From: a virus
Strand: one strand, 5' to 3'
Virus record (IMG/VR): IMGVR_UViG_3300020125_000122
Span: 1-26,770 of that record
Length of the DNA: 26,770 nt
A model generated the notes under the pieces. It was not told where the DNA came from, did not search any database, and worked only from the letters and a program-made list of their open reading frames with translations. Each line of letters opens with the position of its first letter. Position 1 is the stretch's first letter. A program made the translations under genes and the position numbers. Positions 1,914 to 26,141 of the stretch are shown here, in pieces.

Positions 1914-4847
1914 TCATGGGTTCACCACGATCCAGTCGATGGTCGACGTATCCGCCGTGTTGATCGTACCCGCTGCGAGCACGGCCGTGATCTTAAACGA
2001 GCCAGGCGCGCCCACTGAGCGGTCCGCGCTTAGCACCGCATAGTCGACCGTGAGCGTGTGGTTTGCTGGCGTCTTGACGGTCGCGACGATGACGCTCGCC
2101 GCGGTGATTGTGGCCGCGATCGAAACAGTGCCGGCCGCGAGCGTTGCCGTTCCGGATTGCTGATTCGTGACAGAAGAGCCGATCAGCACCCAGCATGCCG
2201 TGCCGAATACTCCAGAAGGCACGTAGAGAAATTCCAGCTCCAGAAACCCGCCCGAAGGAGGCGCAGGGAATACGCGATTGGCTGCGTTTGGCGTGCGAAT
2301 CTTCGCCGCTGCCACGGTCTCTGTACCGCTCTGGTGCACCACCATTAGCTGCTGCGCGATTGCACTGATGACCTTGAGCCGCTGCCCTGGCGAGCCCGCG
2401 CCGAATCCGTCGAGTGAGAAAGCCGCCGTTGCACCCGTTAGGTAGAAAGTCGAAGCGCCGCTGTTAAGGTCGACGTTCGTGCCGTTCGCGACAGTCGTAG
2501 CAAAGGGGATATTGCAGTATGCCCCCTGGTGTTGCATCTTGCCGAAGACTGAGGTGTACGGCAGGGTGACCGTCCCATCGACGAACACCGTGGCGTATGA
2601 GTACGATGAGCCGACGATCGCCGTGTTCGTAACGTTGCCGTTGGTATCCAGCCCGTACGTGAACCCCTGGCAGTTGAATAGCAGGATTGCGACGTTCGTT
2701 GCTGGACCAACAGCGTTGACTATCGCGTCACATACGTAGTGCCCGTGGACTTCTGTATTTTGAGAGCCGTTCAGATCGATTGCCGCACCGCCACCAGGGG
2801 CGATCGACATTGTGCCGTCGACACGTGGGCTGGTGCAGCTAGTCAACGTAACTAGCGGTCCTGCATTTGTTTGATCGCCCGATGAAAGCTTAATCCGTGG
2901 ACGGATTGTATTTTGATGCCAGACGCCAGCGCGGCCGTAGCCGTTGCCGCCGCCCTCCGTTTGCATGTCGACCTGGATATCGTTTCCACCGTAGGAAACG
3001 TGGTTATACCCTGCAATTTGATTCGTGATGCATTGCAGCGTGCGGTTGTCGACGCCGTTTTGCGCTATTGCGTGCAACGCACCAAAGAATGAGCATTTCC
3101 GCACGTCGCTGCCGAACTGCTCATTCTGATGCACCTGTCGCTGCATCCCCTGGAGCGCGGTGTAAACGTGCTCACTGGTGTAAGTACCGGCGGGGAAATT
3201 GAAGGTTAGCCCGTAGCCGTTAGACCATACGGGTAACGCAAACGTGGTTGCGATCGCGCAAGTGGTTGACCCACGGTACGCGCTCGCGCCTTCCCAACGC
3301 ATCCCGCCGTCGACCGAGTAGCGAAAGTGGGTGCTGTCAATGATCTCGATCCGCACATCGAGCGCGAATCCGCACGTTCCTGTGATCGACACCGCGGGCG
3401 CGCTCGACAGGTTGGCCACTAGAGCCGGCGCCGTGGGCGTGAACAGGTTATTGATGAACGCGCAGAATTCGACCGTGTTTAGAGCGCCGTCACTCCCGTA
3501 CACAGAGCACTCGCCGTTGATTGCGCGCCCCGTGAAGGTTGCGGCGTTGTACGCTTTGAGGGTGAGGCGCTCGACCGCGCACCCGTACGTGCTGCGCATC
3601 TGGACGATCGCCTCTGTCGAGCGAAGGAAGCTCGCGGGGACGGCTATCGCCACCACAGCGCCGGAGTTGATGGTCGTGCCCGTCGTCGCGTCTGTGGAAT
3701 ACAGGCGGAGCAGCGTGGCCACGGTCCCGGCGATTGCCGTAACTTGATAAGTACCGCCTCCCACGACGTTCACGTACGCGCCCACGGTGGTGAAGCCGCT
3801 AGCAGTGAGGGTGACCCCCACCACCGAAGCGCCCTGCGCCGGCTGCGTAAAGTTGGCGGAGGTGGTCGTGCTCGCTGCTACATCGTTCGTCGAGCTACCC
3901 AGATTCTTGAGCGTTATCGACGTATTCGCGACAAAGGCGGTCACCTGATAGAAGTTCGGCGAATCAGCAAAACTGATATCGCTGAGGATCTGCCCGACCG
4001 CGACGCCAAGCGTGCTCGGGATGCTAACAGTGACTGTCGCATTGACTGCTGGTTGAATGCACCCGGGCCAGCCGATGTTGACGGCACTCGCCCCAACGCG
4101 GGTGATTATCGTGCCGCCAACCTGCGCCGGCCCCGCGCCGCCTTCGAGCACAACGGACCGGCAGGCATCCATGATCAGATCGCCATTGACCACATATTCG
4201 TAGCCCGCCGCGAGCCGCACGGTCGTTCCGGGATTGGCGATTGCTTGCGCCAGCGCCGCGTTGATCATCGCGGTGACTTTGGTTTGCCCCGCGGTGTCTG
4301 TGTACGGCGAGCCCGTGTAGACGGGGGGCGGAAGATTGATCTTTGCGGCCTTGACCGCCGCATCGGGGAGGCGCACGAATGTCTTGGTGCCCGCGATCGT
4401 CGCCCCCGCCGACTGTCCCCACACGGAACCGGTGCCGAGCAGCCCATTGAGCACTGCACCGAACGGCAACCCCAGCTGCGCGACCACCGTCGCGTCCGAG
4501 TTGTAGTAGCTCGGCCGCGTCCAAGCTCCGCTCGTGTTCGGCGTCCAAAAGCCATTTTGGCTGGGCGTCGTCTGAGATGTGAGCAACACGTCCGCAGTTC
4601 CCGTGTTCACGCCGTCTACCACCTGCACGCCGCTGAGGGAGGCGATGTTCGAGGTGGCTACTAGGGCAGGGGCTGGTATTGCCGCACCAACAACGCTACT
4701 CAAATCAACGACAGTTGAACCGCTCAGCGGGTCATCAGTAACCGACGCGCCCGGAAACTGCACATGCTTACGCTGCGGCACCACGCCGCCGGAGCCATCG
4801 CTGACCTGTATCCCTAGAGCATCAAACAGCCATCCAGCGCCGGTCAT
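1914..4847 (-). CDS. Large tail fibre / tailspike with beta-helix region
   Basis: This 977-aa protein is the largest here and probably the receptor-binding or depolymerising appendage of the baseplate. The ATG at 4847 has AAGGGA six bases upstream and lies one base after the upstream stop. Residues about 55-160 hold the phage adaptor pattern with VDGVNTGTADVLLTSQ, NGFWTPN and WTRPSYYNSD. From about 170 a pectate-lyase-like beginning appears (TKVTAMINAALAQAIANPG, then RLAAGYEYVVNGDLIM), leading into long Gly/Asn/Thr-rich beta-helix-like sequence. The last ~85 residues (SGTATLAAGTVSIAATITAA and on) form a beta-rich tip of a type common in fibres. Enzyme activity cannot be assigned because I cannot pick out catalytic residues. 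Tailspike versus plain fibre is inference. Confidence 0.85.
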   Translation of the reverse strand: MTGAGWLFDALGIQVSDGSGGVVPQRKHVQFPGASVTDDPLSGSTVVDLSSVVGAAIPAPALVATSNIASLSGVQVVDGVNTGTADVLLTSQTTPSQNGFWTPNTSGAWTRPSYYNSDATVVAQLGLPFGAVLNGLLGTGSVWGQSAGATIAGTKTFVRLPDAAVKAAKINLPPPVYTGSPYTDTAGQTKVTAMINAALAQAIANPGTTVRLAAGYEYVVNGDLIMDACRSVVLEGGAGPAQVGGTIITRVGASAVNIGWPGCIQPAVNATVTVSIPSTLGVAVGQILSDISFADSPNFYQVTAFVANTSITLKNLGSSTNDVAASTTTSANFTQPAQGASVVGVTLTASGFTTVGAYVNVVGGGTYQVTAIAGTVATLLRLYSTDATTGTTINSGAVVAIAVPASFLRSTEAIVQMRSTYGCAVERLTLKAYNAATFTGRAINGECSVYGSDGALNTVEFCAFINNLFTPTAPALVANLSSAPAVSITGTCGFALDVRIEIIDSTHFRYSVDGGMRWEGASAYRGSTTCAIATTFALPVWSNGYGLTFNFPAGTYTSEHVYTALQGMQRQVHQNEQFGSDVRKCSFFGALHAIAQNGVDNRTLQCITNQIAGYNHVSYGGNDIQVDMQTEGGGNGYGRAGVWHQNTIRPRIKLSSGDQTNAGPLVTLTSCTSPRVDGTMSIAPGGGAAIDLNGSQNTEVHGHYVCDAIVNAVGPATNVAILLFNCQGFTYGLDTNGNVTNTAIVGSSYSYATVFVDGTVTLPYTSVFGKMQHQGAYCNIPFATTVANGTNVDLNSGASTFYLTGATAAFSLDGFGAGSPGQRLKVISAIAQQLMVVHQSGTETVAAAKIRTPNAANRVFPAPPSGGFLELEFLYVPSGVFGTACWVLIGSSVTNQQSGTATLAAGTVSIAATITAASVIVATVKTPANHTLTVDYAVLSADRSVGAPGSFKITAVLAAGTINTADTSTIDWIVVNP

Positions 4848-18567: not shown

Positions 18568-19185
18568 TTTTCTCACCTTTGCTTGTGCACGCCGCAAAGC
18601 TGCCGGCGCGTTTTTCCAGCGGCTCACGTTCACGCGAGCCGCCATTGTCTTTTCGGGAGTGACCTCAGTGCAGTAGCCAAGCGCAAGCGCCTCGTCTGCG
18701 GTCATCCACGTTTCTTTGCTCATCGCTTCGAGCACATCGTCGAGAGCTTGCCCGGTGCGCTCCACGTAGATGCCGGCCAACATGTCGCGCATCTTGTCGA
18801 GCACGTCAGCTTGCTTGCGCAGATCGTCGCTCTCGCCGTCCACCCCGCCCGCCGGGTTGTGGATCATCATGAACGAGTTTTTCGCCATGCGGATTGTGTC
18901 ACCCGCCATCGCGATCACGCTCGCCATGCTCGCGGCGATTCCGGTAATGTCCACGGTGACGGGCGCCTTATGCGCGCGCAGCATGTTGTAGATCGCGAGG
19001 CCCTCAACGATGTTTCCGCCCTGCGAGCAGATCGAAACGTTGATGGCCTTCACGTCGGAATGCTTGGCGAGCGCGTCGCGCAGGTTCTGTGCGTAGAACC
19101 CGCCCATGCCGATCAGGTCATTGATGTCGACGTTCGCGACGCCCTTGGACACGGCGAAGAACGAGCGGCGTAACTTCGGCGTCAT
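17971..19185 (-). CDS. ClpP-like prohead protease with C-terminal scaffold (Mu I-like)
   Basis: A 404-aa, two-part protein starting at ATG 19185, which overlaps the portal stop as ATGA. Residues about 10-190 are a ClpP-fold serine protease: VSICSQGGNIVEGLAIYNML (oxyanion region), GIAASMASVIAMAG (catalytic Ser86 in G-x-A-A-S), then MMIHNPAGG with His109, and WMTADEALALGYCTEV. After residue 206 the chain turns into a helical, charged scaffold domain. The protease is thought to remove the scaffold during head maturation, as in Mu I. Both catalytic residues are visible; the third member of the triad is not assigned with certainty. Confidence 0.92.
   Translation of the reverse strand: MTPKLRRSFFAVSKGVANVDINDLIGMGGFYAQNLRDALAKHSDVKAINVSICSQGGNIVEGLAIYNMLRAHKAPVTVDITGIAASMASVIAMAGDTIRMAKNSFMMIHNPAGGVDGESDDLRKQADVLDKMRDMLAGIYVERTGQALDDVLEAMSKETWMTADEALALGYCTEVTPEKTMAARVNVSRWKNAPAALRRAQAKVRKMDEELIAQLGLEPGATKEEIAAALTVLQRAAAAAVKAGVADPEPDDDDDEEAPPKKKTAKARLEAQQALASNGNAAVLAAIAKLGKEIAAVAGRVDGSEREKLIAANLKKFTPALEAKARKWPMDVLRDFVADAVDVTSEDEEPTEEQAGARGARGAAKEITLDATARNVARQLGLTDEQMLEAKKADAKRNGLKVVA
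18574..18580 (-). promoter_or_regulatory. Strong RBS for internal scaffold start
   Basis: The minus-strand sequence AAAGGTG ends six bases before the ATG at 18567, inside the protease reading frame. It is stronger than the site at the protease start itself. It supports independent translation of the scaffold. Confidence 0.7.
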
Positions 19186-20558
19186 GGTATTTCCGGCTCC
19201 AATCCAGGCGGCCCCGGCGTGCCCGGTGGTTTAGGTGGCGTACGTGACGGCGATGGCGGCTCGACAAGTGGCTCGGCGTCAGCGTCGTCCTTGATCGGAA
19301 TGCCGAATGCTGAGGCCACTTTCTCGGCGTCTACCATCTTGCCCGACCGCTTCAGCGCTGCGTCGAGCTCTGGAATCGCGCGACCCACCGTCTCGAACGT
19401 CGTGGCCGTGCTCGCCTGCGAGTTCGTGCGCTCCGTATTCCAGTAGCCACACGGCGCGTTGGCGTCGTCGCCCGTGTTCACGCGCGCCCAGGGCTTCGTG
19501 CTGCCCTCGTGCAAGCACAGCGCGAACGCCTTGGCGAAATAGCGCGTAACGTCGCCCTTGATTTCGCCCTGCTCTTTGCCGCTTGAGAAGCCTGGGGAGC
19601 CGTCCGTCGTGACAGCTTGCGAGATGATCGCGATCGTCATCGCCGAGTCAGCCCAGTCGCTCGACTCGCTGAAAATCTCCCACGTGCGGCCCTTGGCCTC
19701 CACGAGGTTAAGCGCCCAACCGTCAGGCAGAACGATGCGACCGTTGCGACCGAGCGCGGTCAGCTGCTGAAGCAGTCGCAGGCGCTGTTTCTCGGTGCCG
19801 CCCTGCGTGCTCGTGCCGACCCAAGTGGGTGAGCCCACTACCTCGCCCTGGTTCGCGCGGTCCTCGATCGAGAAGCGTTTGACCAGCCACGGGAAAGCAC
19901 AGCTGCGCCACTTGCCGTCATTCCACGGGCGCGACTCGCCGTAAGGCAGGTAGAGAAAAAACTGACCGCCGGGAACGATCGCCTTCATCCCGGCGCGCGT
20001 CTGCAAACGCCAATGCGAGCCGCTCGTACCGGTGTGGTCGTAGTTCAGAAATCGCGGATGCCAGGTCTTCAGCCGGAACCGCTGCTGCTGCCCGAGCAGA
20101 CGCGGCAGCGGCACACGCTGACCCACGCCGACGCCGAGCATCGTTCCCCAGTTGTACAGCTTGCGGAGCTCAGGCTCCGGGTGCATCTGGTTCCACTCAC
20201 CGCCGGCTCCGAGCTGACCAGTACCCGCGAGCAGCTTAGTCAGCGCGTCCGAGCCCCCCTCGTACTGCAATGGCAGGCCGAATGTGCCGAGCGTGAGCGA
20301 CTGCAACACGCCCTCGATGTGGTCGTCACTGACCATCGCGTCGACCAGGTCCGCGAGCTGGAGCAGGTTGCCTAGGTCGGCATTCGCGCCAGCGACCGCC
20401 ACCAGGTCTGGGGTCCAGCCGGTAATCGATGGGCGAAACTGCAAGTCACGGGCTTTGAGCCCCGTGATGATTTCGCTCCCCTCGACAGGCGACGGCCCCT
20501 TGCTGCCGACCCGCGAAACGGGCTGCAACGGTGAGGCTAGGGCGCGCGCGCGGGACAA
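19182..20558 (-). CDS. Portal protein (Mu gp29/DUF935-like)
   Basis: A 458-aa protein forming the dodecameric DNA entry ring. Helical and beta patterns fit portals: LLQLADLVDAMVSDDHIEGV in the N-terminal part, LRKLYNWGTMLGVGVGQRV, then LKTWHPRFLNYDHTGTSG, FFLYLPYGESRPWNDGKWRS, and a long helix region with DSAMTIAIISQAVTTDG followed by VTRYFAKAFALCLHEGSTKP. The last 30 residues are proline-rich and probably disordered. The only start near the reading-frame opening is a TTG at 20558 (an in-frame TAA lies 21 bases before), and it sits inside a hairpin, so the start is uncertain. It is followed by the protease with an ATGA overlap, as in Mu. Confidence 0.9.
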   Translation of the reverse strand: MSRARALASPLQPVSRVGSKGPSPVEGSEIITGLKARDLQFRPSITGWTPDLVAVAGANADLGNLLQLADLVDAMVSDDHIEGVLQSLTLGTFGLPLQYEGGSDALTKLLAGTGQLGAGGEWNQMHPEPELRKLYNWGTMLGVGVGQRVPLPRLLGQQQRFRLKTWHPRFLNYDHTGTSGSHWRLQTRAGMKAIVPGGQFFLYLPYGESRPWNDGKWRSCAFPWLVKRFSIEDRANQGEVVGSPTWVGTSTQGGTEKQRLRLLQQLTALGRNGRIVLPDGWALNLVEAKGRTWEIFSESSDWADSAMTIAIISQAVTTDGSPGFSSGKEQGEIKGDVTRYFAKAFALCLHEGSTKPWARVNTGDDANAPCGYWNTERTNSQASTATTFETVGRAIPELDAALKRSGKMVDAEKVASAFGIPIKDDADAEPLVEPPSPSRTPPKPPGTPGPPGLEPEIP

Positions 20559-20566
20559 GGTGTCCC
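20552..20566 (-). promoter_or_regulatory. Hairpin over portal start codon
   Basis: GGGACA (20552-20557) and TGTCCC (20561-20566) form a perfect 6-bp inverted repeat around a three-base loop. In the minus-strand RNA, the portal's likely TTG start (56-58) and the GGGA that could serve as ribosome binding site both lie inside it. This could limit portal translation or be an operator-like site. Inferred from base pairing only. Confidence 0.4.
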
Positions 20567-20584
20567 AAGTGGTACGTTATTGTG

Positions 20585-20626
20585 TGGGGTGGGTCAAGTT
20601 GAACCCACTGGGTGGCTACGGACCCA
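20585..20626 (-). repeat. GGGT/ACCC hairpins before portal, related to the 1835 cluster
   Basis: GTGGGT (20589-20594) pairs with ACCCAC (20603-20608), and TGGGT (20609-20613) pairs with ACCCA (20622-20626). The 11-mer TGGGGTGGGTC at 20585-20595 is identical to that at 1835-1845. The left part lies in the gap between the methyltransferase-like gene and the portal; the right part overlaps the end of that gene. It may be an RNA structure or protein-binding element used at both ends of the structural cluster. Confidence 0.4.
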
Positions 20627-21178
20627 CACCGGAGCTTCGCGCGAGATAAATTAGCGCTGCCGCAAATTCCAGCGGTGTCGCAGATGATTCGACTTTTCCG
20701 AGCGTTGGTTTATTTCGATCGAACCATCCGCATTGATGCGTGCCGGGCACGCGCTCCCAGCGCAGATCGGTGGGCCTGGCTCCGCAGTAAAATAGCCATG
20801 TGCGCTTGCGTGCCCTGTGGCCGTAGGCGCTTTGCCAGACCTCACAGACCCACTCACGCGGGCCACCCGAGGAATTGGCAGCCCGAAATCATGAAACGCC
20901 CATGAAAACGCGGGATGCTCTAAAACTCCGCCGCACCTGCGCACCGTAGCAAGCGCCTCAGCAAAACATCCCCCATCGTTCCCGGGCCGGTTGTGCTCGC
21001 CTCCGTAACGCTTGAAATTGACGCGCGTCAGATTGGTCCAAAGCTGGCAGGGAGGATGTGCAACAACCGGATTCGCCCCCGCGTACTGCCGCGCGTCGCG
21101 CGCTTCGTCCCACGGGTCGACACCAGGCAAATCGAAATAAACGCCACCCGTGGCGACAAACAGCGCCGCGACGGTCAC
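20616..21178 (-). pseudogene. PPC-motif methyltransferase-like gene, frameshifted
   Basis: The GTG at 21178 overlaps the terminase nuclease stop as GTGA. Residues 38-50 hold VVAHPPCQLWTNL, a Pro-Pro-Cys motif reminiscent of cytosine-5 methyltransferases. Then NDGGCFAEALATVRRCGGVL and EHPAFSWAFHDFGLP follow. After LPIP the frame degrades and ends at 20651. In the -1 frame the family's normal C-terminus reads on cleanly: EWVCEVWQSAYGHRARKRTW, then PTLGKVESSATPLEFAAAL, ending at TAG 20616-20618. Restoring one G in the GGG run at about 20868 would join both halves. So it is either a real inactivation, a sequencing error or a programmed shift. No SAM-binding motif is seen, so methylation activity is doubtful. 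Confidence 0.72.
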
Positions 21179-21831
21179 GAGCCTACACCGGCACGCCTCG
21201 CCAAGTCAGCCGGCAACTCCCCCGGCAAATCGCGCATGTACTCCTCTCCGTACGGGTCCCGGTGCCGGTTTTTGCGCGCCATCCGTCGTTCCCGACCGGT
21301 CATCGTCGTTCCGTCCAAGAACCCGCGGTCACTCGCCCGCTCCAGCGCGTACACCGAAGCCACGAACGCCCGCGCACAGTCGCCATGGGACGACGCTTTG
21401 CGCGGGTGGTCGATGTGCACAACGCCATCCCGCCCGGGCTTGCCCACGGTCTCCTTGAGCTCGCTCACGAGCTGCTCACTCGCCGCGCTCAGGTCGATAC
21501 GGTGCGCGCCGAGCAGTACGCGCACGCGAACGAACGCATCGGCGATGCCGGCCGCATCGCTCGGGAACTCGACATGCTCCACGTCCTCATCCTCAGTCAC
21601 CTCGAGCACGGTCGCAAGATAGTGCGAGTCCGAGCAGTGGGACTCGGCGCCCCACCGTTCGATCTCGTGCATGGCCTCCTTGAAAACGATGCTTGGTCGT
21701 AGCGGGCGCTCGCCTGGCTTCCACACGCGCTCATGCACCACCGTGAACACGCCATCGGGATCGCCGCGCGTGAACACGAGTGCCGCACTGTCGCGGATGA
21801 ATGCGTAGTCTGCGCCGGCTACGGTGCGCAT
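21175..21831 (-). CDS. Terminase large subunit nuclease domain, separate gene
   Basis: A 218-aa protein that is only the C-terminal RNase H-like nuclease half of a large terminase. The ATG at 21831 directly follows the TGA of the previous gene. MRTVAGADYAFIRDSAALVF carries the first acid (Asp8, with Asp14 nearby). RPLRPSIVFKEAMHEIERWG leads to CSDSHYLATV with the second (Asp68). VRVRVLLGAHRIDLSAASEQ leads to HPRKASSHGDCARAFVASV with the third (Asp151). This order (GAD, DxHY, GHGD) is the recognised layout of terminase nuclease domains, which cut the genome at the end of packaging. It lacks any ATPase motif, which is in the gene at 22457-23545. The C-terminal 45 residues are basic and Arg-rich. 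Confidence 0.85.
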   Translation of the reverse strand: MRTVAGADYAFIRDSAALVFTRGDPDGVFTVVHERVWKPGERPLRPSIVFKEAMHEIERWGAESHCSDSHYLATVLEVTEDEDVEHVEFPSDAAGIADAFVRVRVLLGAHRIDLSAASEQLVSELKETVGKPGRDGVVHIDHPRKASSHGDCARAFVASVYALERASDRGFLDGTTMTGRERRMARKNRHRDPYGEEYMRDLPGELPADLARRAGVGS

Positions 21832-22038
21832 TCAGGCGCTCATCCGTCGCGACCTGCGTTGGCTGCTGCTAAGCGGAGCAGGGCCGACTGTGCGTTCTGG
21901 ACGCTTGTATCCACCGATAGCGTCCAACCGATCAAGCTCCAGTTCGATCATGCCGCCCTGATACGTGTCGCCGCTGAGGCGGCACTTGGTCAAGTCCGCC
22001 AGCAGCAGCAAGGCTCTCTCGGCCCGCATGCCCATCAC
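21832..22038 (-). CDS. Hypothetical 68-aa protein between terminase halves
   Basis: Starts at GTG 22038, overlapping the upstream stop as GTGA, and its TGA abuts the nuclease ATG. The N-terminus MMGMRAERALLLLADLTKCR is a short hydrophobic helix. GGMIELELDRLDAIGGYKRP follows, and a basic Ser/Arg C-terminus (SSSQRRSRRMSA) ends it. I see no domain. Its coupling to both terminase halves suggests a role with them, but this is inference. Confidence 0.62.
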   Translation of the reverse strand: MMGMRAERALLLLADLTKCRLSGDTYQGGMIELELDRLDAIGGYKRPERTVGPAPLSSSQRRSRRMSA

Positions 22039-22460
22039 ATGCTCTGCTTACGGTTCGGCCGAGCCACAGGACCATTCTTCGGCTCGCCTTCGAGCGCGCG
22101 CTTGGCGGCCTCGGCTTTCGCTTCTTCCGCGTTCGCCGTCGTTCGGTCCGCTACCTCGGCTTTCGACGCTTCGATCGCGGTAAGCAGCTTGCCGGAGAAC
22201 GCGAGCCCGGTCAGGTCGAGTTCTTCGAGCCCACAGGCAATGCGCCGGTCAACGGCCTCCACGAGCAAGTCTTCCGGGTTCTCGTGGCCGAGGTCACGCA
22301 GCACGCCGGCCAGGTGCGCGCGGTACGCGAGCCCGCTCACGATATCCTCTGGCTTGTCCTCGTCTTTCCAGTCAGCGATGCGTTGCTTTGCCTTCGCGAT
22401 GCGCTGCTCTTTCTTGCTCAGCTTGGGGGCGTCGTCGTGTTTTTGCGTCTCGGTGCTCAT
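22035..22460 (-). CDS. Helical 141-aa protein between terminase halves
   Basis: The ATG at 22460 overlaps the terminase ATPase stop as ATGA, and its own stop overlaps the next GTG. The protein is almost wholly helical and charged: KLSKKEQRIAKAKQRIADWK near the N-terminus, LAYRAHLAGVLRDLGHENPE in the middle, then KLLTAIEASKAEVADRTTAN and EEAKAEAAKRALEGEPKNG at the end, with coiled-coil character. There is no HNH, intein or intron motif. It is not an obvious terminase small subunit because no helix-turn-helix stands out, though a DNA- or protein-binding role in packaging is plausible. Function unknown. Confidence 0.65.
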   Translation of the reverse strand: MSTETQKHDDAPKLSKKEQRIAKAKQRIADWKDEDKPEDIVSGLAYRAHLAGVLRDLGHENPEDLLVEAVDRRIACGLEELDLTGLAFSGKLLTAIEASKAEVADRTTANAEEAKAEAAKRALEGEPKNGPVARPNRKQSM

Positions 22461-23545
22461 GATGCCTCTTCTCCTATTTCAACGTCTGACCAATCGTGGC
22501 CGAATTTCACTGCCTGCTCAATCAACATAGCACTGAAGAACTTCGTCTCGTCGCTCGCGAGCGGTACAGCCTTGTACGCGCGTGCCCAGCTCGGCGCGTC
22601 GGGCTCGAGCAAGTGCGTCTCTTCCTCGCTGATAAAATTGTCGTTCGCCACCCAAGTCGGCGCATAGAACGCGAGCTGAGCGGCGGTCTGCCCAAGCTCG
22701 AACATCTTGTGATGCTCGTCCAGCGTCGACCATGGCGCGCTGACGTAGTGAATCACCGCGTTGCGCATCGTGGCTGTGGTCGGCTTCAGACTGCGGATGA
22801 TGTCCGCGGCCGGGTTCGTGCCCTCCTTCTCGTCTCTCCAAATCGCCATTTCGTCGCACATCGCGCCGATACACGTGAACGAAACAACGCTCGTGATCGA
22901 AGCCGTGAAGCAACGGATCGCACGGTTCATTTTGCTGAACTCGAACGACTCGGCCATCGGCTTGCCGTCCACGCCGATCACGTCGCAGATCGCCTTGATG
23001 GTTACCACTCGCTCTTTCGCTTGCGGTCGCTCGGCGCTGATGATCGCGTAGACGCCCGTGTCGCCGGGCGGCACGTCGTGGTCACCGAACACGCATTCGA
23101 AAACCGCAACGCGGCAGATGGTCGTGCTCTTGCCGCCGCGTCTCCCAACGCGCCACACGCACGCGCGGCGCTGCTTGCGCGGACTGAGCAAGCGCTCGCG
23201 CATCACCCAGTTTGCGAAGTAGAACCGAGCAAGCCGCTTCTTCCACCACTCGGACATCGGAGGCCAGCCGGCAGCGTCGAGCTCGGAATTTATCCACGCC
23301 AGTTTCTCCGGCAGCTGCGGCACGTAAACCTCGCATGGCCCTAGCGGCGGCTCGTCCCGGTTGCCCTCCAACTCGATCCACGCCGAGCCGTCACCGTACA
23401 GCCGAACGCTGTCTAGGTCCGCCGCGCGCTCAAACGCGAACTCCCAAGCGAGCGCATGCGATTCGAGCAGCATTGAGCCAGCTCGGCGCGCCTTCGGCTT
23501 CGCGCCCTTGCGAGCGCGCGGCTTGGCGGTTCGCGGTTTACTCAC
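22457..23545 (-). CDS. terL: Terminase large subunit ATPase domain, separate gene
   Basis: A 362-aa packaging ATPase starting at GTG 23545, which overlaps the upstream stop as GTGA (longer starts run into the previous gene). Its N-terminal 22 residues are very basic. The motifs are Walker A VGRRGGKSTT (about 133-142), Walker B IGAMCDEMAIW with Asp231-Glu232, and coupling motif HYVSAPWST (about 266-274). It then has the usual bridge FYAPTWVANDNFISEEETHL and DETKFFSAMLIEQAV. The protein stops right there, where normal terminases (450-600 aa) continue into a nuclease. That nuclease is encoded 625 bases downstream as a separate gene. The gene drives DNA into the prohead, presumably with that partner. 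Confidence 0.9.
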   Translation of the reverse strand: MSKPRTAKPRARKGAKPKARRAGSMLLESHALAWEFAFERAADLDSVRLYGDGSAWIELEGNRDEPPLGPCEVYVPQLPEKLAWINSELDAAGWPPMSEWWKKRLARFYFANWVMRERLLSPRKQRRACVWRVGRRGGKSTTICRVAVFECVFGDHDVPPGDTGVYAIISAERPQAKERVVTIKAICDVIGVDGKPMAESFEFSKMNRAIRCFTASITSVVSFTCIGAMCDEMAIWRDEKEGTNPAADIIRSLKPTTATMRNAVIHYVSAPWSTLDEHHKMFELGQTAAQLAFYAPTWVANDNFISEEETHLLEPDAPSWARAYKAVPLASDETKFFSAMLIEQAVKFGHDWSDVEIGEEAS

Positions 23546-23874
23546 ACGCGCACCCGACCAGCCAACACATCCTCGCGCGTGATGAGGTACGGGCGGTTCG
23601 CCTCCTTCGCGCGCCTCGTCGCATCGTCGTCGAACAGCCCGACCTTCAGGAAATATTCCAGCGCATCCTGACGATGACGCGGGCCTGTGTAGTACGCAAT
23701 CGTTTGCGGGTCCGTGATTACGTCCTCGCTCACGTTCAAGTTTTTGAACGTCGCCCAAGCCTCCGCCATGTCGCGGTCTACGAAAAAGAACGCATGCGGT
23801 TTTTCGCATTCCTCCTCGTTCACCAACAATTCACCGACTCGCCAGCACTTCAGTCGCTCAGGTTGCTTAGCCAT
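23542..23874 (-). CDS. Hypothetical protein before terminase, small-subunit position
   Basis: A 110-aa protein starting at ATG 23874 (MAKQPERLKCWRVGELLVNE). Longer starts run into the preceding gene. The N-terminal half is compact with HAFFFVDRDMAEAWATFKNL and VSEDVITDPQTIAYY, and the C-terminal half has RHRQDALEYFLKVGLFDDDA then ANRPYLITREDVLAGRVRV. It is overlapped by the terminase GTG. A small terminase would be expected here, but I see no helix-turn-helix or coiled coil, so that role is only a possibility from position. Confidence 0.65.
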   Translation of the reverse strand: MAKQPERLKCWRVGELLVNEEECEKPHAFFFVDRDMAEAWATFKNLNVSEDVITDPQTIAYYTGPRHRQDALEYFLKVGLFDDDATRRAKEANRPYLITREDVLAGRVRV

Positions 23875-23881
23875 GCTTGGC

Positions 23882-24268
23882 TCACTTAACCGCCGAAAGC
23901 AGCGCCGCGGCCGCATAATACTGCGGGTTGGCCAATTGTTGCGCGCCCGTCTTCCCCCAGTTCAGTACCGCTGCCAGCGAAAGCATCGCGGCGACCCCGT
24001 AAACCAGTGCACGAAACCACAGCAACTCTTCGTCAATCATTGCCTTCTGCATCATGCGCACGAATAGCACGCCGCAAATCCAGATAGCAGCTAACGTTAT
24101 TGCGCACGCCGCTAGGTTCGCTATACCCTCGCTCTTCTGCTGCGCGACCGCAATATCCCATGCGTGTGGCGCTATCTTCTGCGCTGCGTCGGTCACTATT
24201 TTCACGCCGTTAGCGATGTGGTCGATAGCTTTCTCGGACGCCTCTGCAAAACTTGGATCACTCATCAT
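23882..24268 (-). CDS. Two-span membrane protein, holin candidate
   Basis: A 128-aa protein with GAGAGG before two adjacent ATGs (24268 and 24265, the second better spaced). It has a soluble helical N-terminus (residues 1-48), transmembrane segments NLAACAITLAAIWICGVLFV (about 51-70) and about 84-103 (WFRALVYGVAAMLSLAAVLN), and a short Ala-rich end. Charge and length are within the range of two-span holins, but holins lack a diagnostic motif and no endolysin lies in the window. It overlaps the end of the 113-aa gene. Confidence 0.62.
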   Translation of the reverse strand: MMSDPSFAEASEKAIDHIANGVKIVTDAAQKIAPHAWDIAVAQQKSEGIANLAACAITLAAIWICGVLFVRMMQKAMIDEELLWFRALVYGVAAMLSLAAVLNWGKTGAQQLANPQYYAAAALLSAVK

Positions 24269-24599
24269 CTTGCCTCTCGCTCAGGTTAACACGCGCGCGA
24301 GCGTAGTACCGGTCGCGCCTAATCTGTCGGTCAATCGCGCTCGCCAGGTCCTTTGACACATGCGGCTCGTGCGGCCGCGTCTCATGCACGCCAGTAATAC
24401 CAATGCGCATCGGTCGGCGCGGGCTCGTCGGTTCCGGCATCTCCACTCGGTAGTCTGTCTCCGGGTCCGCACCATACAACGGGCACAGCCCGAGCGCAGC
24501 GCGCAAGCCGTTGGCGAACACTTGCAACGCCTCAGCCTCGGCACTGCGTCCAGTGAAACGCGCAGGTCGCGACGGGTTAGCTATTCGCCTCGGCATCAT
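24258..24599 (-). CDS. Hypothetical 113-aa basic protein
   Basis: The start is at ATG 24599 (MMPRRIANPSRPARFTGRSA), overlapping the TGA of the 29-aa gene by four bases. The upstream part of the same open frame is a shadow of other genes. A helix EAEALQVFANGLRAALGLCP follows, then a polar Pro-rich stretch with ADPETDYRVEMPEPTSP, IGITGVHETRPHEPHV, and a basic C-terminus with SAIDRQIRRDRYYARARVNL. No domain is recognised. Its role is unknown. Confidence 0.65.
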   Translation of the reverse strand: MMPRRIANPSRPARFTGRSAEAEALQVFANGLRAALGLCPLYGADPETDYRVEMPEPTSPRRPMRIGITGVHETRPHEPHVSKDLASAIDRQIRRDRYYARARVNLSERQDDE

Positions 24600-24685: not shown

Positions 24686-24864
24686 CCGAACAGCTCCGGC
24701 TCGTCGTGCCCCTGGTCGCAGATGCAGTTGTTCGCGACGCGCCCACAGTACTCGCAAGGGCAGCTGCACTCAGTGAGCAAACGCTGACAATCGACGCATG
24801 TATCATCGCATGGGCAGCGCTCAACCGTTGCGCCTCTTCCGCATTTGCATAGCTCAGTGGTCAT
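24682..24864 (-). CDS. Cysteine-rich zinc-binding-like protein, 60 aa
   Basis: ATG at 24864, overlapping the VapE stop by four bases. Twelve of 60 residues are cysteine (6, 8, 17, 19, 23, 26, 33, 35, 37, 40, 47, 49). They come in CxC or CxxC pairs, as in LCKCGRG, CPCDDTCVDC, ECSCPCEYCG and NCICDQ. This suggests two to three zinc sites or a compact zinc-ribbon array. No signal peptide is present, so it is probably cytoplasmic, with metal rather than disulphides. It may be a small regulator or a partner of VapE. Family not recognised. Confidence 0.7.
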   Translation of the reverse strand: MTTELCKCGRGATVERCPCDDTCVDCQRLLTECSCPCEYCGRVANNCICDQGHDEPELFG

Positions 24865-26141
24865 ACGTCGTCCTCGCCTGGCTCGCGCATGGGGAGCCTG
24901 TCCTTGAGTTTGTAGACTGCAAATTTCTTCCCACCTATCAGACGGCGACCGTCCGACGTGTAACCTAGCCGTGTGAGCGATATTCCGACGCGCGTACTCA
25001 TTTGGCGAGTCTGCTGCGCGGGTTGCACGCCGATCGAATTAAGTACCTCCCCAACAGTGAAATCGACCTTGCTCGACGCCGACTCCCAAGTGTCGATGAT
25101 GCTCGCGATTTGGTTCTCCCATACGTCAGCGTCGTAACGTTCCTCCTGCTGGTCCTGTACCTCCTGCACCATCTCCTTGGTGGGGTGCCACTGCTCGCCA
25201 CCCTCGAACAGTGAGACGGCTTCTCCCCACAATTGGTCACGCAGCTTCTCTATTTGCTCGACCTTGATCTCAGCGCCGCAGGTCACAGGCCAGTAGCGTC
25301 TGTTGCCTGTGGGGTCGGTGAAAATCTTCTCGCCGTTAGTGGTCGCGGCAAACACGCATGTACGCGGGCGCTTGATGTTTCCGCGGCCGTAGGGCGGTCG
25401 ATAATCGTCTACCTTGCGAGTAACGAAGCCCTTGAAGGCTGTCAGCTCGGAGCGAACCATCGAGTCAAGCTCGCCTTCTTCGATTATCCATTTGCCGACC
25501 AACGCGATCGCTGCGTCCTTGCCTTCGACGTTTCCGATCTTGTCGATGAAGTATTCAGCACCGCAAAGCGTTTGCAGCGCGGTCGATTTGCGTAGACCCT
25601 GAGCGCCCTGCAAAATCAACATGTAGTCCGCTTGGCAACCCGGTTGGATGACCCGCGCGACGGCGGACACCATCCACCAGATTGCGATCTTCGATACGTA
25701 ACGACTGTGCTGAGCCCCGAATAAGTCGGCCATCATCGTCCCTAGGCGCGGCTTCCGGTCCCACGTGAGTCCACGCAAATACGAGCGTAGCGGGTTGACT
25801 CGGTTCATGCGAGCCGCGGACATGCAAGCCGTGTAGAGCATCGTATCAGGGAACACGCATGGGAATTGCAGCTCGTGCTTTGCTAGAAAGTTTTGCACAT
25901 AGTCAACGTGGTCCACGTCGCTAAACTCTTCGCCGGCTAGAGGGGCCGGAAATCCCGAAATGTTCGGCGGAGACTTGAGCCAAAACGTGCGATCCGAAAA
26001 TTCGTCAAACGCCAGGTGTCCAGCTAGCTTGCCGTGCGTGATGAGCAGGCGCGCGTTGGAGCGGATCTTCTGTAACCCCTCTTTCTTATCGTGACAAAGC
26101 GCCGTGATCCAATGCTGGTCGATCTTGATTACATTGCTCAT
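24861..26141 (-). CDS. VapE-family P-loop ATPase (primase-helicase-like)
   Basis: A 426-aa protein of the virulence-associated E family, whose members include replicative helicase-like proteins of phages, prophages and satellites. Visible motifs are YLRGLTWDRKPRL (about 121-133), ARVIQPGCQADYML, Walker A GAQGLRKST (179-187, with Arg where Gly is usual), the acidic strand WIIEEGEL (218-225), sensor FAATTNGEKIF (264-274) and the arginine-finger type segment DPTGNRRYWPV (276-286). No primase domain is present, and the C-terminus is a winged-helix-like tail. The ATG at 26141 overlaps the upstream stop as ATGA. It probably unwinds DNA in phage replication. It is unusual that it is transcribed in line with packaging and head genes. 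Confidence 0.88.
   Translation of the reverse strand: MSNVIKIDQHWITALCHDKKEGLQKIRSNARLLITHGKLAGHLAFDEFSDRTFWLKSPPNISGFPAPLAGEEFSDVDHVDYVQNFLAKHELQFPCVFPDTMLYTACMSAARMNRVNPLRSYLRGLTWDRKPRLGTMMADLFGAQHSRYVSKIAIWWMVSAVARVIQPGCQADYMLILQGAQGLRKSTALQTLCGAEYFIDKIGNVEGKDAAIALVGKWIIEEGELDSMVRSELTAFKGFVTRKVDDYRPPYGRGNIKRPRTCVFAATTNGEKIFTDPTGNRRYWPVTCGAEIKVEQIEKLRDQLWGEAVSLFEGGEQWHPTKEMVQEVQDQQEERYDADVWENQIASIIDTWESASSKVDFTVGEVLNSIGVQPAQQTRQMSTRVGISLTRLGYTSDGRRLIGGKKFAVYKLKDRLPMREPGEDDV

Follow-up and report, generated by a model that had tools for sequence, protein, structure and literature searches.

A large terminase encoded by separate ATPase and nuclease genes, with open reading frames within the cut, in a virus record carrying a contractile-tailed phage module

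The virus record IMGVR_UViG_3300020125_000122, whose 26,770 bases are the whole stretch of DNA analysed here (the window), carries the ATPase and the nuclease domain of a phage large terminase (TerL) in two separate genes of the minus strand. The gene for the ATPase half (22457-23545, GTG start, 362 amino acids (aa)) and that for the nuclease half (21175-21831, 218 aa) are separated by 625 bases, which hold two open reading frames (ORFs) of the same strand: one of 141 aa (22035-22460) and a doubtful one of 68 aa (21832-22038). The two domains thus do not share a polypeptide, as is likewise the case in the two-gene TerLs already known. This order, with its coordinates and lengths, had been given correctly in a preliminary description made from the DNA sequence alone. 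The same description had the intervening genes coupled to both halves by overlapping start and stop codons, which holds for the ATPase/141-aa junction (ATGA) and the junction of the two ORFs (GTGA), but not for the third, where the 68-aa ORF abuts the nuclease gene in the same frame without overlap (TGA ATG). Both outer junctions of the four-gene run are GTGA overlaps. With a probability of roughly three in four, these genes encode a functional large terminase made as two polypeptides and split at the inter-domain hinge, the inserted ORFs most likely being passengers.

The ATPase half is recognised by two TerL profiles, phrog_2 (expectation value (E) 3e-9) and phrog_9 (E 0.0013, profile positions 210-364), and it presents the motifs expected of a P-loop ATPase, namely Walker A, Walker B and an SxPW-type motif. 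In an alignment of 11 sequences, G134, G138 and K139 of the Walker A motif (residues 134-140, GRRGGKS; 23126-23146, minus strand) and the Walker B acids D231-E232 (22850-22855, minus strand) are invariant in all rows, as are S269 and P271 of SAPW (residues 269-272; 22730-22741, minus strand), which we take to be the coupling (C-) motif and whose W272 is nearly invariant. A longer reading of the gene, of 450 aa, was rejected, as the extra 264 upstream bases score -0.51 in frame by codon usage. The AlphaFold2 model of this half is poor (predicted local distance difference test (pLDDT) 50), and its 25 best Foldseek matches are all TerL chains, with query TM-scores of 0.33-0.38. A sequence search of the PDB with the ATPase returned nothing.

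The nuclease half presents the features of an RNase H-like nuclease with three acids, D8 (21808-21810), D68 in DSHY (21628-21630) and D151 in HGD (21379-21381), all on the minus strand and, together with H149, invariant in 11/11 rows of its own alignment; the claim that both halves keep their catalytic residues is therefore borne out. Its AlphaFold2 model, built from a 10-row alignment, is of better quality (mean pLDDT 76, predicted template modelling score 0.75). The 21 best Foldseek matches of the model in the PDB are all TerL chains, and comparison with TerL nucleases by VIA-align gives Z up to 16.3 over 159 aligned residues, whereas a PDB search by sequence gave chance matches only. According to the model, the protein is a complete TerL nuclease fold and, because the first predicted strand spans residues 2-8, the gene starts where the fold starts; the first nuclease acid had been noticed at its beginning from the sequence. 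The profile searches and single-chain structure predictions that the preliminary description had proposed as checks thus point to TerL for both halves, through the TerL fold for the nuclease and through the profiles and best structural matches for the ATPase.

The relationship of the two halves to a single ancestral protein is best seen in the TerL of virus Rctr16k (KX853514, from an enrichment culture), a one-chain relative in which residues 39-292 align to the ATPase half and residues 306-470 to the nuclease half (BLASTP, E 4e-11 and 9e-25, each as a single comparison), with only 13 residues between the two matched stretches. A search of 50,697 phage records with the nuclease returned this TerL (E 2e-14) and nothing else at E<=0.01. 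The ATPase chain was said to end right after the helix LIEQAV; it continues for a further 16 residues beyond it, LIEQAV being the conserved end of its domain, and the break does lie at the domain border. These lengths also dispose of a split intein, for which only 16 residues would be available past the conserved part of the ATPase, and a single residue ahead of the first strand of the nuclease. An assembly error was considered as well; it would presumably need three independent errors, each of them at a start/stop junction, and the resulting chain would carry some 210 additional residues within the hinge.

The completeness of the two halves bears directly on whether they are the remnants of a broken terL in a decaying provirus that no longer packages DNA. 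In favour of decay, both halves are very divergent and the record is not known as an active virus. Against it, the catalytic residues are kept, the break falls at the hinge and both halves align to consecutive parts of the Rctr16k TerL. In the head and tail genes around them, those for portal, protease, major capsid protein, sheath, tape measure and baseplate, the open frames are long and match known families. Decay is accordingly judged very unlikely, and the view that the break is not random damage stands. The functional two-chain reading is further supported by the position of both genes in a tightly packed run of one strand, shortly ahead of the portal gene.

Alignment-guided scans of viral contigs recovered eleven further relatives (L004-L013 and L023; L010 and L011, with equal lengths and scores, seem to encode one and the same protein), which together with Rctr16k make 12 records. 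In all 12 both TerL domains lie in one ORF, of 522 to 662 aa when counted from the first possible start; because of this, the split is most simply read, from these sequences, as a derived change on the branch of the window. The ATPase and nuclease alignments, of 11 rows each, leave out L011 and L023. Single-protein scans of viral contigs with the nuclease, the ATPase, the Rctr16k TerL or the major capsid protein found no relatives, nor did comparison of the nuclease with the genome collection and with plasmids. In several of the relatives other small ORFs, identified by eye, lie between terL and the next long gene.

The inserted ORFs were evaluated by codon usage, with a log-odds score per codon trained on ten confident genes of the window, whose leave-one-out range is 0.07-0.43. 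The 141-aa ORF, at 0.28, falls within this range and is therefore clearly coding-like; the ATPase gene scores 0.20, the nuclease gene 0.11 and the 68-aa ORF -0.01. The last value is the best of the six frames of that stretch, yet it lies below the 5th percentile (0.11) of 47 chunks of the same length from confident genes, so that the 68-aa ORF may not be a gene, and of the two intervening genes described beforehand only the longer looks coding. Two controls limit these scores: among 76 plus-strand ORFs the best reached 0.12 and 11 were above 0, so that values near 0.1 do not separate genes from chance, and the 175-aa gene downstream of the nuclease scores -0.11 despite belonging to a real family, so that a low score does not exclude a gene.

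Neither inserted ORF could be assigned to a family. The 141-aa protein, rich by eye in charged, helix-like sequence, had no Pfam match beyond chance, none in PHROGs, none at E<=1 in the 50,697 phage records and none in 13 related or reference whole records (a search made without a positive control). The 68-aa protein gave no convincing match in Pfam or PHROGs, and neither ORF matches any ORF of the fetched relatives.

The poor coding statistics of the 68-aa ORF raise the question of whether it forms one gene with the nuclease, either through readthrough of the single TGA that separates them in their common frame, which would give the nuclease an N-terminal extension, or through a nuclease start inside the 68-aa ORF. 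Since the ATG of the nuclease gene already gives a complete nuclease fold, and TGA ends seven of the eight genes examined with no reassignment apparent, this is considered highly improbable. TGAATG is an ordinary restart arrangement.

An undescribed intron, by which RNA splicing would remove the 625-base insert and restore one chain, was weighed in the same way. There are precedents for interrupted terminase genes: an excerpt of PMC11878797 reports group I introns in terL of Bastillevirinae phages (5/52), and one of PMC6466031 describes splicing of the alphaherpesvirus TerL gene, in which the intron generally contains two genes. In the window, however, the ATPase gene has a stop and the nuclease gene a start of its own, both with coupling signals, a coding-like ORF lies in the insert, and no Rfam intron family was found at E up to 5 over 20500-24500. 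Nor did either inserted ORF match a homing endonuclease (HNH, GIY-YIG or LAGLIDADG; Pfam at E up to 1, PHROGs at E up to 10). With these results from Rfam, Pfam and PHROGs, and with no room for an intein, the earlier statement that the insert has no intein, HNH or intron features is upheld, and splicing is regarded as scarcely credible. Short repeats in the gap between the halves gave no lead, and a consensus scan of 21000-24000 found no promoter-like sites. Of the terminator-like matches (5, against 2.5 expected), none lies at 21832-22456 of the minus strand, and they gave no lead either.

With regard to their surroundings, the packaging genes belong to a minus-strand series that runs from a VapE-like helicase through small genes to the TerL ATPase, the 141-aa and 68-aa ORFs, the TerL nuclease and a 175-aa gene, and continues with a Mu-type portal, a ClpP-type head protease, a gpT-type major capsid protein and then tail genes, among them those for sheath, tape measure and baseplate. 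This series constitutes a contractile-tailed phage's head and tail module. The portal gene (19182-20558, minus strand; PF06074, E 1.1e-37) is one gene downstream of the nuclease, near TerL as is usual for a terminase. The gene between them (20651-21178, minus strand), which shares a GTGA overlap with the nuclease gene, belongs to phrog_12600, of unknown function (E 8.8e-38); it contains an AHPPC motif, and its poor codon score may reflect a recent arrival. At the end of the tail run, a 977-aa ORF (1914-4847, minus strand) without a PHROG match at E 0.01 is possibly a tail fibre or other virion protein. The VapE-like helicase gene (24861-26141, minus strand; PF05272, E 4.2e-76) lies about 1.3 kb ahead of the packaging genes.

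The gene directly before the ATPase, P0006 (23542-23916, minus strand, 124 aa), has no convincing family match; at the corresponding position, directly before terL, the relatives L004, L005 and L009 have a gene that by eye is helix-turn-helix-like. A PHROGs scan of 30 window proteins recognised no small terminase, a kind of protein that easily escapes detection.

Several observations weigh against a functional two-chain TerL. Some of them concern the identification of the halves: PF03354 matches the ATPase below its cut-off (11.7 vs 23.7 bits), tblastn with the ATPase against the 50,697 phage records gave no match at E<=0.01, and a whole-record search with phrog_9 returned nothing at E<=0.1. 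For the nuclease, the match to a later stretch of phrog_9 (profile positions 481-687) is weak (E 0.0096), no Pfam model matches, and the codon score of 0.11 is not above the best plus-strand ORF. Others concern the history of the genes. No relative was found that shares the four-gene order, for which a search had been proposed at the outset, so the persistence of the arrangement is without support. The window has the longest branch in both trees (3.24 changes per column for the ATPase and 2.55 for the nuclease), with weakly supported placement, and such branches could reflect relaxed constraint on both halves. The two trees also place the window differently. In tests of groups that were chosen after the trees were seen, the ATPase data reject a grouping of the window with L002, L004, L005 and L006 (p 0.006), as well as one with only L006 (p 0.015); the nuclease data do not reject the wider group of the ATPase tree, L007, L010, L012 and L013 (p 0.42), and give a borderline result when L012 is left out of that group (p 0.053). 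A shared descent of both halves is thus compatible with the sequence data, not proven by them. Finally, the record is of 26.8 kb and its completeness is not stated; activity is unproven, and a complete TerL may sit in an unseen part. Within the window no second TerL was found, and the complete copy that the preliminary description had named as evidence against a split is absent from these 26.8 kb.

The course of events favoured here would begin with an ancestral one-chain TerL of an Rctr16k-like lineage that was cut at the hinge between its ATPase and nuclease domains, one or two foreign small genes now occupying the cut. The ATPase chain would form the motor ring on the portal and pump DNA. 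The nuclease chain would be made from the same message, its start probably reached by ribosomes that finish the preceding ORF and restart at TGAATG. It would then dock non-covalently on the ATPase, at the place of the tethered domain, and cut the concatemer when packaging begins and when it ends. That the halves associate in this way is suggested by analogy with cultured two-gene phages and with other split enzymes. The inserted ORFs would be passengers, comparable to moron-like genes, rather than required parts; this is thought probable because cultured two-gene TerLs lack them and because small ORFs occur near terL in several relatives.

Cultured phages with a two-gene TerL are of two kinds. 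They were sought only around the nuclease of Arthrobacter phage BillyTP, and the counts given here come from the best 60 of 70 records. BillyTP, of cluster AY, is described with such a TerL in part of PMC11920828, and an excerpt of PMC12820723 gives the same account of BlueShadow. The BillyTP kind comprises at least 19 records (at least 14 phages, each of them an Arthrobacter phage) with at least 90% identity to the BillyTP nuclease and with terminase genes 2 and 3 annotated under the match; cluster membership is given here for BillyTP only. The second kind, Gordonia Nyceiraevirus, comprises at least six records (at least five phages: Nyceirae, Dogfish, Phishy, Ewald and Meyran) with the nuclease in a gene of its own. 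In all six gene tables (BillyTP and the five Gordonia phages) the two TerL genes overlap or are at most 28 bases apart. Across the records L014, L026-L030 and L032 (BillyTP kind, Nyceiraevirus and Phrank15), the two-gene junctions range from overlaps to gaps of 10 and 28 bases. Among the matches listed, 24 of 25 two-gene records have no gene between the halves, 18 from Arthrobacter phages by consecutive gene numbers and BillyTP and the five Gordonia phages by gene table, while the 25th is the RefSeq copy of a Gordonia phage whose gene table was not covered. The break falls at the hinge in these phages as in the window: on the one-chain relative Phrank15, residues 18-360 and 359-577 are matched by the two BillyTP proteins, and residues 18-350 and 359-559 by the corresponding pairs from Nyceirae, Dogfish and Phishy.

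These phages bear on the proposal, made in the preliminary description, that a two-part motor could need the inserted genes to hold the nuclease near the portal. Because cultured two-gene TerLs with the same hinge break have no gene between the halves, such a tether is not required in general, and the proposal is not supported in that form. For the window itself, the 141-aa protein could still be a dedicated third component that keeps the nuclease at the ATPase ring, whether as a tether or as a small terminase that has been displaced. The coding-like character of its ORF, the ATGA coupling to the ATPase gene, its charged and helix-like product, and a window in which no small terminase is recognised and P0006 lacks a convincing family all agree with this, but the uninterrupted pairs of the cultured phages and the lack of relatives that could show a conserved association make it unlikely. 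A more elaborate form, a three-part motor of ATPase ring, separate nuclease and a 141-aa coupler that recruits or releases the nuclease, would be rather improbable; if true, it would mean that cutting and pumping are controlled by assembly, not by a tether within the chain.

A functional two-chain TerL would have consequences of its own. To our knowledge, how a terminase keeps its nuclease quiet while pumping and then activates it at the end is an old open question; with the nuclease on a separate chain, pumping and cutting could each be provided, left out or titrated without the other. A single split event may underlie both actinophage groups, because the Gordonia nucleases (57-60% identical to that of BillyTP) are closer to it than that of Phrank15 (41%). 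The split of the window looks independent of theirs, because hidden Markov models of its TerL family do not detect the two genes of BillyTP. That both lineages are cut at the hinge suggests that this border was split on two or more separate occasions and, if so, that the covalent link between ATPase and nuclease is dispensable. The actinophage two-gene TerLs, together with the one-chain Phrank15, offer a culturable system in which to ask why TerL is normally one chain.

Compared with known systems, the two-chain TerL itself is not new, being known from cultured phages; what is new here is a different TerL lineage and the presence of ORFs within the cut. In the open-licence PMC literature, actinophage two-gene TerLs were found and no TerL split with inserted genes. 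The window resembles the BillyTP kind in that two genes, divided at the same hinge, encode ATPase and nuclease, and differs from it in its TerL lineage and in the two ORFs (the 68-aa one doubtful) between halves that are consecutive genes in BillyTP. It likewise shares separate genes with Gordonia Nyceiraevirus, in which the pair sits between small terminase and portal without inserted genes, the hinge break having been found in three of the five phages. Rctr16k and the 11 viral-contig records belong by sequence to the TerL lineage of the window in both halves, but their TerL is one chain. Outside terminases, excerpts of PMC2988022 describe essential enzymes of T4-like phages that are split by inserted DNA and reassembled from two chains (Aeh1 nrdA/mobE, phage 25 gene 43 and the T4 topoisomerase); there the NrdA halves of Aeh1 and gp43A/43B of phage 25 are active, and the inserts of Aeh1 and T4 are homing endonucleases, for which the ORFs of the window gave no match. 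In OM43 phages, according to part of PMC10580990, a small unknown ORF separates the parts of a split DNA polymerase. A parallel in layout is that of the herpesvirus TerL (UL15 and its homologues), whose two parts have other genes between them, generally two in alphaherpesviruses (PMC6466031, in excerpt); unlike the separate chains proposed for the window, the herpesvirus exons are joined into one protein by eukaryotic splicing.

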